This document shows positions 1 to 2,272 of a DNA stretch of 64,000 bases, in pieces. Position 1 is the first letter of the stretch, and each line of letters begins with the position of its first letter. This DNA is from Evansella clarkii (lineage in GTDB: Bacteria; Bacillota; Bacilli; Bacillales; Salisediminibacteriaceae), in the NCBI RefSeq assembly GCF_002019695.1, contig NZ_KV917376.1, positions 1 to 64,000 of the forward strand, given 5' to 3'. The notes beneath the pieces are model-generated. The model searched no databases. It was given only the letters and a program-made list of their open reading frames with translations, and had not been told where the DNA came from. A program made the position numbers and the translations under genes.

Positions 1-203
1 CCGTTTGTTTCTGTAATGCTTTAAACAATTCCTTATAGAAATTAAAGGACTACATACTAAGAAGTCCAGGTGTATTAAATGTATTGTATCAGAAAATATT
101 TACAATTTTTTATACAGTTAGTTATAATGTTAAATACCGATGTACCTTTGACTTAAACGTGGGATCTCTTAATAAGTGAAGCCTTGCCGTTTGTTTGAGG
201 ACA

Positions 204-236
204 TTGGTTCTTTTATTGGTACAAATATTGTAAAAT
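204..236 (+). promoter_or_regulatory. Promoter of the IS110 leader RNA
   Basis: A TAAAAT -10 box lies at 231-236. The best -35 candidate is TTGGTT at 204-209, with a long 21-bp spacer. The predicted transcription start, about 243, coincides with the first base of the closing stem of the structured RNA. The -10 box is convincing and the -35 is weak. Confidence 0.4.
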
Positions 237-242
237 AGAGAT

Positions 243-394
243 GTGCAGTGACCTTTATGGTGATTCCGACCTTAACTGGAATGGGGCTAGAACAACTAGA
301 CCTCTAATATTGGTGTGAGGCACTCCACAATTTATTGGCACTGCACTTATATAAAAAAGGAATCTACTCCTGTCATTTTAGGCAGGATTTTTTT
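243..394 (+). ncRNA. Candidate IS110 bridge RNA
   Basis: A self-contained unit of about 150 nt lies inside the IS, upstream of the transposase. An 8-bp closing stem (GTGCAGTG 243-250 with CACTGCAC 339-346) encloses three smaller hairpins: 263-267/278-282, 287-290/296-299 and 314-317/326-329. A terminator hairpin with a T run follows (368-394), and a -10 box precedes it at 231-236. IS110-group elements are known to encode a structured RNA in this position that pairs with target and donor DNA. The segment CCUUUAUGG (252-260) could pair, with one bulge, with CCTAAAGG at the right edge (2226-2233). That match is short and only suggestive. Position, size and structure support the call; guide assignments are not established. 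Confidence 0.55.
368..394 (+). terminator. Terminator of the IS110 leader RNA
   Basis: TCCTGTC (368-374) pairs with GGCAGGA (381-387) across a 6-nt loop, with one wobble, and seven T residues follow. It separates the leader RNA from the transposase gene. Confidence 0.7.
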
Positions 395-646
395 ATTTTC
401 TAGGAGGATTTTTGAATATTTTGTCTTATATAAAAAATCAAAAAAAAGACTATATAGAGTCAGAACAAAAAAACAATATCAATTAAGCAGTTGAAACTCT
501 ACCGTTGATTGGGGCTATTACTAGACTCCTGTGTTAAATTTGAGATTTAATATCTGGCGATATAATCCTGACATACTACATTGGGCATAAGCTCTCACAG
601 AAACTTGGATAGTCAGATATGTCATACTGCTGTACTAGGAGGAGAA

Positions 647-2071
647 ATGACAAAAGATACCATTACTCCATTTAGTTATGGAAATGACGCACAAAACAGG
701 CAAGAAGAACAACGTAAGTTTTATCAGTTTTATGTTGGTATTGATATTGGAGCGAGTTTTCATGTGGCTTCGTGTATCCAGTTTGATGCTTTTTTAGATC
801 CAAAGGGGATTGCTTGGAAACGGACGAAAACCATGAAATTTAACTCTGATAGTGCTGGAATAGCCGATTTTCTAATGGCATTAGAAAAGATTGAAAAACA
901 ATTTAACCTTACTAAAAAAGACTTTTTAGTTTTACTTGAGCCAACAGGTGGACATTATTCTTATCTCATTCAACAAGTGCTTTTAAACAAAGGATATGAT
1001 TTGTATCAAGTAGAAAATAGAGCTGTTGGAGAGTTTCGTAAGAATAATTTAGGTATCACTGAAAAGACAGATTCCATGGATGCGAAAGTAATTTCCTACA
1101 TGGGGTGGCATAAGCAGTTACATCCACATATGCAGGGTGTATCCCTTATTCGCCCACAATCTGTTCTTCAATCCTTGTTTCGGACGGTAATGCGTGACCG
1201 CTGGTATTTAAATGTCCAATTAACACGTAGGAAAAATCAAGTCCAACAACTATTAAAGGTGACTCACCCAGACTTAAATAAGGCGTTTAAAAGCTTATCC
1301 AGTCCGTCTGTAATGAAGTTAGTTTTGGAATACCCTACTGCCCTTCACTTGAAGGAAGCTTCGGCTGAAGAGATTTACAATACATTATTAACGGCTGGTG
1401 CTAAAAGTGTAGCTAAAAAAGCAGCCAATGTATTGGCTAAGGTTACGCCTTATACGGTCGCCGTGCCAGTTGAACACCTTGTAGGAAGACAAAAATGGCT
1501 GATAGAAGAAGCCTTACGACTTGAGGAAAGCATTAAACTTATAGACGAAGAGATTCATACTCTCCTTTGGGGGAACGTTGAAAAGGGGATTGACCCCCAC
1601 CCATATACCGAAATCCTTATGTCGCTTCCTTTCATAAGTGAAAATATTGCTTGTACACTAATTGGTGTTATTGGAGATATTGAACGATTTAACACATATA
1701 AAGAGTTCAAGAAATACCTGGGCGTTTCTTCAGAAAATAAGCAGTCTGGCACTTCAGTAACTGGAACTAGGCAAACGTACAGTGGTGTACGGGACGCACG
1801 TAGAGTTCTTTATCAAATCTCTTTAATTATATTGGCAAATGGTCAAAAAAAACCAACCGTTTTTAAAGCATATTATGACCGCAAAGTAGAGGAAGGAATG
1901 AATAAGAAGAAAGCTATCGGACACCTTTGTGGTAAAATAGCTGCCCTTATTTATACTCTTCTAAAAAATGGAGTGAAGTATGATCCTATAATACATGCGA
2001 AAGCATGTGGTATTAAGGCTGAGCAGTTATATGGCGATAATTTAGATAAAGAGCCACAGTTATTGAAATAG
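647..2071 (+). CDS. IS110-family transposase (DEDD recombinase)
   Basis: 474-residue DNA recombinase that moves the IS. The N-terminal RuvC-like domain carries the DEDD set: D33 in VGIDIG, E98 in LLEPTGG, and D142 and D145 in EKTDSMDAK. The C-terminal Tnp_20-type domain (about residues 330-430) contains KQSG, where the serine nucleophile of this family is expected. The start is the ATG at 647 because AGGAGG (637-642) sits just upstream; the frame stays open 22 codons further but without a ribosome site. At 474 residues it is longer than many IS110 transposases (often 330-420). The frame is intact, so the element may be active, probably guided by the RNA at 243-394. Confidence 0.95.
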   Translation: MTKDTITPFSYGNDAQNRQEEQRKFYQFYVGIDIGASFHVASCIQFDAFLDPKGIAWKRTKTMKFNSDSAGIADFLMALEKIEKQFNLTKKDFLVLLEPTGGHYSYLIQQVLLNKGYDLYQVENRAVGEFRKNNLGITEKTDSMDAKVISYMGWHKQLHPHMQGVSLIRPQSVLQSLFRTVMRDRWYLNVQLTRRKNQVQQLLKVTHPDLNKAFKSLSSPSVMKLVLEYPTALHLKEASAEEIYNTLLTAGAKSVAKKAANVLAKVTPYTVAVPVEHLVGRQKWLIEEALRLEESIKLIDEEIHTLLWGNVEKGIDPHPYTEILMSLPFISENIACTLIGVIGDIERFNTYKEFKKYLGVSSENKQSGTSVTGTRQTYSGVRDARRVLYQISLIILANGQKKPTVFKAYYDRKVEEGMNKKKAIGHLCGKIAALIYTLLKNGVKYDPIIHAKACGIKAEQLYGDNLDKEPQLLK

Positions 2072-2163
2072 GTGAAAAGAGTTATATCTAACATTATTGT
2101 TTATGGATATTTATGTATATTTATGTATTTATTATACAGTTCTCTAAGTCTTTTAAATTGTAG

Positions 2164-2199
2164 AAACCCCTAAATTTTTGCATGGAATTAGGGGTTTTT
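2164..2199 (+). terminator. Terminator after the transposase
   Basis: AAACCCCTAA (2164-2173) pairs with TTAGGGGTTT (2188-2197) and runs into T residues. It lies inside the right end of the IS. Confidence 0.8.
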
Positions 2200-2272
2200 C
2201 ATTATTAATTTTTTATTTTTAATTTCCTAAAGGACTACACTACATTTAAGTGCCTTCTTTCACATGTTACTC

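Follow-up and report, generated by a model that had tools for sequence, protein, structure and literature searches.

A putative target-guide hairpin beside a bridge-type RNA in the left end of an IS110-family element from Evansella clarkii

The window analyzed here is a stretch of 64,000 nucleotides from Evansella clarkii (NCBI RefSeq assembly GCF_002019695.1, contig NZ_KV917376.1, positions 1 to 64,000 of the forward strand), and at its start lies an insertion element that, judged by the DEDD RuvC-like domain and the Transposase_20 domain of its recombinase, belongs to the IS110 family. Three conserved blocks, A, B (with a terminator behind it) and C, are found in 24 aligned left ends of this element and its relatives (Table 1). 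Sequence comparison identifies A as a conserved structure whose guides change together with the flanks of the element, and C as an RNA whose donor loop changes together with the series of right end, core and left end. A sequence-only reading had proposed that the RNA at 243-394, which includes B, is the bridge RNA of the element; a bridge-type RNA does appear to be encoded in the left end, but the guides lie outside that segment, upstream of it in A and downstream of it in C. The explanation that we favor, and consider rather probable on these alignments, is that three structured RNAs are made from the left end, with A delivering the recombinase to the target, C supplying the donor, and B acting as an accessory.

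The comparisons draw on ten further loci from the order to which the window belongs (six of 397 genomes, the window's own counted) and on 24 loci from a genome collection, with hosts that include Bacillus timonensis, B. solitudinis, Ureibacillus, Brevibacillus, and Paenibacillus. Over the best segment, the proteins of these relatives are 47-87% identical to the window recombinase. Several elements are represented twice, and two loci (L023 and L024) come from one genome. For the guide tests, only elements with a readable flank were used and identical pairs were collapsed, giving 19, 14, 23, and 13 distinct target pairs, and 7 and 8 donor pairs. The guides of A, and the values for L031, L032, and L050, were read from alignments and sequence, part of them being located by script afterwards. 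The loop strings of C were taken without L036 and L042, and those of its 3′ side also without L027, L030, and L037.

The span of target that corresponds to the two guides of A covers 7 nt on the left, the TT core, and 5 nt on the right. On the left, A matches the flank of its own element at 6.47 of 8 nt and the flanks of other elements at 3.20 (19 distinct pairs); on the right, the values are 7.07 of 8 nt for own flanks and 4.39 for others (14 distinct pairs), and on neither side was the match reached in any of 20000 shuffles. The 7 nt adjoining the core on the left are matched in full in 10 of the 19 pairs, with one miss in six more, and the first 7 nt on the right in 13 of 14. The sequences themselves are diverse: guide and left flank share CCGTTTG in the window, CCGATTG in L028, AAAGTCG in L026, AATAAAG in L027 and L033, ATAAAGTA in L038, and TGTGAATA in L031, and the left flank of L050 (AATATAG) is also fully matched. 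Right flanks matched by the 5′ loop include TTTAAGT in the window, TTGAACA in L028, TTGTAGA in L033, and TTAGACT in L038. When the flank was shifted by 4 nt as a control, the right side fell to background (15174 of 20000 shuffles). Copies of one element in genome G084, and likewise in G157, have different flanks that are mostly guide-like, so the flank match is not simply carried along with the element.

The structure of A is a covarying hairpin. In an alignment that was fitted to this structure, so that the covariation test leans towards A, 89.1% of cells are paired compared with 74.9% in shuffles, and double changes occur in 14 of 16 pairs; a shift of the pairing partner by one column leaves only about 50% of cells paired. 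This alignment of 24 rows omits a truncated first A in L021. A model of the block, R1, matches the window at 128-219 (83.6 bits) and 32 of 36 sources with E-values of 1.5e-7 or better, duplicates being among the sources. The sources without an R1 match are L040, L042, and, with left ends truncated by the contig or locus, L036 and L044. Across the class, R1 matches eight of 398 genomes and the recombinase family (E-values up to 1e-40) seven of 398, the seven being among the eight; the remaining genome (G484, locus L065) has degraded versions of A, B, and C, as judged by eye, and no recombinase match in the 3,091 bases of that locus. The promoter-like sequence before A is weak when taken alone (5 such sites in 1-2400 compared with 9.2 expected in shuffles). 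A -10-like hexamer 5-10 nt before A passes the rule in 21 of 22 copies, with scores of 5 or 6 out of 6 in 12 of the 22 and only 3 in five, and none of 300 background draws scored as high.

The number of A hairpins is not fixed. L031 and L032 each have two with different guides, one of which fits the left flank (5/5 and 4/5 positions, respectively) while the other differs from it, as judged by eye. Several further arrangements were noted. A second, partial A is visible by eye in L049, and in L032, L049, and L065 the A nearest to B appears to carry an identical left guide, TAACTA, while the outer A varies. In L021 (2173-2574), the left end and part of A are doubled. The second left end directly follows CTACCGTTAG in the first A, as would be expected had one copy recombined into the guide within the A block of an older copy. 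Litchfieldia salsa (L024:1650-1739) has an isolated A-like hairpin, with the beginning of B after it, about 830 bases upstream of the main A. The stretch between A and B in the window (207-238) has a 32-base match (91%, E-value 9.8e-4) in L009, from a genome of the same genus in which the element was not found; this may be chance.

The consensus of block C is two hairpins with internal loops, in which 99.7% of cells are paired and double changes occur in 8 of 18 pairs. Its second loop reads the ends of the element. Against the left end, the match is 7.14 of 8 for own ends and 5.14 for others (12 of 20000 shuffles; seven distinct pairs), and against the right end 7.25 and 6.43 (242 of 20000 shuffles; eight distinct pairs). 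The ends that this loop tracks include TTTCCGT in G084 and G157, TTTTCTT in L033, L035, L039, and L050, TTTCTAT in L031, TTACTGT in L032, and GTTACATT in L038. By the loop measure, the first loop follows the target more loosely than A does, with a longest common stretch of 4.78 on the left compared with 3.36 for other elements (0 of 20000 shuffles) and 4.15 compared with 3.26 on the right (42 of 20000 shuffles). The left-target guides of A and C have the same sense, which weighs against the idea of A as an antisense RNA to C. The -10-like hexamer before C is less regular (3.00 compared with a background of 2.05; 1 of 300 draws), and a terminator scan found no terminator-like site from C to the start codon. 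The recombinase message may therefore have C as its leader.

Block B was the subject of the sequence-only reading, and much of the anatomy described there is borne out. The RNA 243-394 folds at -45.9 kcal/mol, whereas shuffled sequences average -31.98 (z = -3.85) and none of 200 folded as well. The fold has the closing stem GTGCAGTG/CACTGCAC (8 bp in the fold, 10 bp in the alignment of copies) and internal hairpins as had been claimed. The -10 box attributed to it was recovered as a -10-like hexamer ending 6 nt before 243. Such a hexamer passes the rule in 19 of 21 copies of B (three of the 19 scoring only 3 of 6, and L023 and L024 being one genome), with a mean of 4.10 compared with a background of 2.04 and none of 300 background draws as high. 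The expected terminator is present as a terminator-like hairpin with a T run, one of 2 such sites found compared with 1.2 expected in shuffles. Covariation in the proposed stems, a check that had been set beforehand, was found in part for B and clearly for A and C. In 21 copies of B (20 distinct), 97.1% of cells pair compared with 93.8% in shuffles. The closing stem says little here because it hardly varies; the covariation comes mainly from the GGGGCTAG hairpin, with 18 double-changed cells compared with 5.2 in shuffles, but the count of further pair types is not above shuffles (317/500).

The claim that 243-394 programs target and donor choice was not upheld. Across 13 elements, the longest match of B to the target is no better for own flanks (4.92/5.31 nt) than for others (4.96/5.28), and its longest donor match does not exceed 6 nt in any of 14 elements, compared with 5-7 nt for A and, in 15 elements, 6-8 nt for C. 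The pairing of 252-260 with the right edge that had been suggested, CCUUUAUGG with CCTAAAGG, can be drawn for the window but is not conserved: of 23 elements with a right end, only the window has CCTAAAGG, and the B segment is CCTTTA-like in the others. This pairing was therefore set aside for lack of conservation, as was B as a bridge RNA, there being no target or donor guide above background; by its anatomy, B is not an RNA of that type. An Rfam scan of the window gave no family at the gathering score. One hairpin, GGGGCTA..TAGACC, is common to B and C. Two segments of B (GGCACTCC and GGCACTGC) are similar to the right-end repeat AGCACTAC; both of them read GGCGCT in L034 and L041, where the right end reads GCGCTAC, possibly a single coordinated change in one lineage. 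Block B is inverted in L031, with TATAAT just upstream, and, as judged by eye, in a plasmid copy from Priestia megaterium (L057). A and B therefore do not form a single obligate transcript; in L050 the 5′ arm of B is missing, again by eye. Our guess would be that the same recombinase binds B, which would then have an accessory or regulatory role.

The intact downstream transposase and the IS110 assignment that had been claimed were confirmed by family searches. The frame matches PF01548 with 62.2 bits (cut-off 29), PF02371 with 56.2 bits (cut-off 21.3), and NF051857 with 336.1 bits (cut-off 180), whereas its score against the TIGR-Tas family, 38.4 bits, stays below the cut-off of 100. A profile of the window protein and five relatives finds the structures of IS621 (8wt6, E-value 7.9e-14) and ISCro4 (9t56, E-value 5.5e-12). 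Residues E98, D142, and D145 and the serine of the SG motif are in register with IS621, and D33 falls outside that alignment.

Boundaries of the element were obtained from copies and relatives, with one inferred copy of the TT core, at 8-9, counted in and 2244 as the last right-end base. The start of the window is a contig end, and window 1-99 is repeated as the last 99 bases of the same contig. A second copy in the genome, at 665,809-667,501, is interrupted by an assembly gap; the two copies are identical from window base 1 rightward and diverge leftward. Borders agree between the G084 copies and the ends of relatives, with ..flank|TTTC(C/T)GTAATGCTTTA on the left and ..AAAGCACTACACTAC(A/G)TT|flank on the right. 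A near-perfect subterminal inverted repeat of 12 bp joins TGTAATGCTTTA at 13-24 with TAAAGGACTACA at 2228-2239 in the window, the latter being TAAAGCACTACA in relatives. No empty site was found in the genus, where the right-flank gene is present in two of eight other genomes without a convincing left flank adjoining it, and the core is therefore inferred. No exact unoccupied target site was found in the host's own genome; seven sites each have one mismatch, and a control pattern gave two. Two G084 copies (L016 and L012) are unlike in the base before the core (CTACA and CTACG), perhaps a mismatch from strand exchange that was repaired.

Plasmid relatives are represented by partial matches in two Priestia megaterium records, and a scan of viral contigs for relatives confirmed none. 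Between transposase and right end, eight of nine relatives examined (L025, L027, L028, L029, L031, L033, L035, and L037) contain about 650-2,900 bases that include open frames, which gives them the appearance of cargo carriers. Judged by eye, one of these frames looks like another IS110-like transposase, and others have a likeness to a NUDIX protein, a serine hydrolase, and an antiporter.

Table 1. Positions of the element and of its predicted RNA and guide features in the window.
Feature	Position	Strand	Basis
Left target half CCGTTTG	1-7	+	flank, outside the element; identical to A guide 187-193; left divergence of two genome copies
IS110-family element	8-2244	+	copy comparisons in G084 and G157; ends common to relatives
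Promoter-like TTTACA-18-TATAAT before block A	99-128	+	11/12 matches to promoter rule
Block A, hairpin RNA with target guides	136-208	+	R1 match, structure covariation
A 5′ guide ACTTAAA	151-157	+	complementary to core and right target 2245-2251 (TTTAAGT)
A 3′ guide CCGTTTG + TTT	187-196	+	identical to window 1-10
-10-like TAAAAT before block B	231-236	+	ends 6 nt before 243
Block B, conserved, no guide found	243-346	+	fold, alignment, donor and target tests
Terminator-like hairpin and T run behind B	368-394	+	hairpin 368-387; terminator scan
Block C, bridge-type RNA, IS621-like fold	487-630	+	alignment, consensus fold, covariation
C loop 1, 5′ side CCGTT	502-506	+	identical to outer left target
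C loop 1, 3′ side TTAAA	534-538	+	complementary to TTTAA of core and right target
C loop 2, 5′ side ACTACATT	575-582	+	identical to right end and core 2239-2246
C loop 2, 3′ side ACAGAAA	597-603	+	reverse complement of left end 8-14 (TTTCTGT)
Recombinase, 474 aa	647-2071	+	PF01548, PF02371, NF051857; profile match to IS621 and ISCro4
Inferred core TT and right target half TAAGT (flank)	2245-2251	+	end comparisons, A guide covariation

In the arrangement that we favor, C would be a bridge RNA in the order of IS621, in which loop 2 pairs with the donor, the circle junction of right end-TT-left end, while loop 1 pairs loosely with the target. Block A would be a separate hairpin of ∼75 nt that reads the whole target in the strand order of IS1111 seekRNAs. 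Recombinase loaded with A might find and hold the target while recombinase loaded with C holds the donor, the two joining as a recombination complex, and new sites could be reached through altered or added A hairpins. Work on IS621 states that the target and donor loops in its complex are thought to come from two RNA molecules, and that separated loops support recombination in vitro (PMC11208158), which makes a natural split mechanically plausible, with A on the target dimer and C on the donor dimer.

Several observations weigh against this arrangement. The transcripts of A, B, and C are predictions from sequence, and shuffles overstate significance because the relatives share descent. Three left pairs fit A at only 5 of 7 positions (L021, with CCTATAG, L043, and G084c), and L021 is also poor on the right; in L043 the left flank is fitted better by C than by A (5 compared with 3 of 5). 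On the left side, the control shift of 4 nt brings the match nearly, though not entirely, to background (reached by 136 of 20000 shuffles). L040 keeps C without an R1 match for A. Target sequence is present in C as well, so A may be redundant or have its role in a different step, and the excess of target matches in C is confined to its loops, the whole block showing none (own 6.00/5.21, other 5.81/5.28). Orientation is a further difficulty. Under the IS621 rule, A would address a target rotated by 180 degrees, which predicts the opposite orientation of insertion; contrary to this, the 3′ side of A fits the left-end flank in the 24 elements compared (3 to 5 of 5 positions). Either the present recombinase follows a different rule, which the IS1111 order suggests, or the role of A lies in another step.

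This last option leads to the strongest of the other explanations, which we hold to be possible and rather unlikely, namely that insertion relies on C as the only working bridge RNA, with A acting in another step at the same site, such as joining the target halves that border the integrated element for excision, guiding second-strand cleavage, or blocking reinsertion. The order of target and donor loops in C agrees with the observed orientation of insertion, A is rotated relative to C, and formation of the ISEc21 circle is described as needing target flanks at the ends (PMC11187229). Weighing on the other side, A carries the longer and fuller target match, and in L028, L031, L032, and L038 the left flank is matched more poorly by C than by A, even with C scored at its best offset.

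It is improbable, in our estimation, that A and B form one transcript, an IS1111-type bridge RNA with B as the donor multi-loop, beside an IS110-type C, giving two complete guide systems. The adjacency of A and B in the window, the likeness of the B segments to the right-end repeat with its parallel change in one lineage, and the report that IS1111 orthologues can have donor-binding bases in a multi-loop (PMC11208160) are in keeping with such a scheme. However, the donor matches of B are short, B does not follow the right-end changes of the window, L033, and L035, and its inversion in L031 and L057 excludes a sense transcript shared with A there. We regard it as highly improbable that 243-394 is itself the bridge RNA: it lies in the left end, folds compactly, and has a -10-like box and a terminator-like hairpin, all of which would suit such a role, but no target or donor information was found in B, its right-edge pairing is not conserved, and guides were found in A and C.

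Among known systems, the closest likeness of C is to the IS621 bridge RNA (PMC11208160, PMC11208158), which is described as lying in the left end and having two hairpins with internal loops, the first for the target and the second for the donor, with the 5′ side pairing with the bottom strand and the 3′ side with the top strand. In contrast to IS621, loop 1 of C in the window leaves two bases adjoining the core unmatched and tracks the target loosely, and the element adds a separate target hairpin (A) as well as a third RNA (B), where IS621 is reported to have a single RNA of 177 nt. The seekRNAs of IS1111 elements are described as 70-100 nt in length, with the top-strand complement 5′ of the bottom-strand match, and the order is reversed in ISEc21, an IS110 member (PMC11187229). 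The A hairpin has a similar size and the same strand order as the IS1111 seekRNAs, whereas C has the reverse (IS110) order, and the 12-bp subterminal repeat (TGTAATGCTTTA / TAAAGCACTACA) resembles those of about 11-13 bp in the IS1111 group. Unlike an IS1111 seekRNA, A lies upstream of the transposase rather than downstream, no donor loop was found in it, and it coexists with an RNA in IS110 order; the recombinase has 474 aa compared with the 330-350 aa given for IS1111.

A likeness to TIGR arrays and their tigRNAs (PMC12045711) can be seen in the layout of A, where an edge stem, a guide, an inner hairpin, a guide, and an edge stem follow each other with guides for both strands, in the additional A units of L031 and L032, and in the sub-threshold TIGR-Tas match of the recombinase. 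Unlike TIGR systems, the element has no long tandem array (one A as a rule, two in L031 and L032), the recombinase is a full DEDD enzyme, and there is a linked donor RNA. ISPpu9 (PMC8450116), compared by description only, is likewise an IS110-type element with two small RNAs, but these are described as regulating transposase expression. Among open-licence papers, bioRxiv preprints not included, no IS110 element with a separate target hairpin was recognized from titles and the start of abstracts, which is weak evidence of novelty. In the papers cited, bridge RNAs have target and donor loops on one molecule, and the order of guides is a difference between the IS110 and IS1111 families. We tentatively suggest, with slightly more doubt than confidence, that this IS110-family recombinase works with a separate, duplicable, single-hairpin target guide in IS1111 order beside a donor bridge RNA in IS110 order, a naturally split and potentially multi-target system that would lie between bridge RNAs, seekRNAs, and TIGR arrays. 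With both orders on separate RNAs and A hairpins that can be added, a stand-alone small guide for target choice would become directly testable, and the element offers a concrete point of comparison for the proposed link between IS110 and TIGR-Tas.
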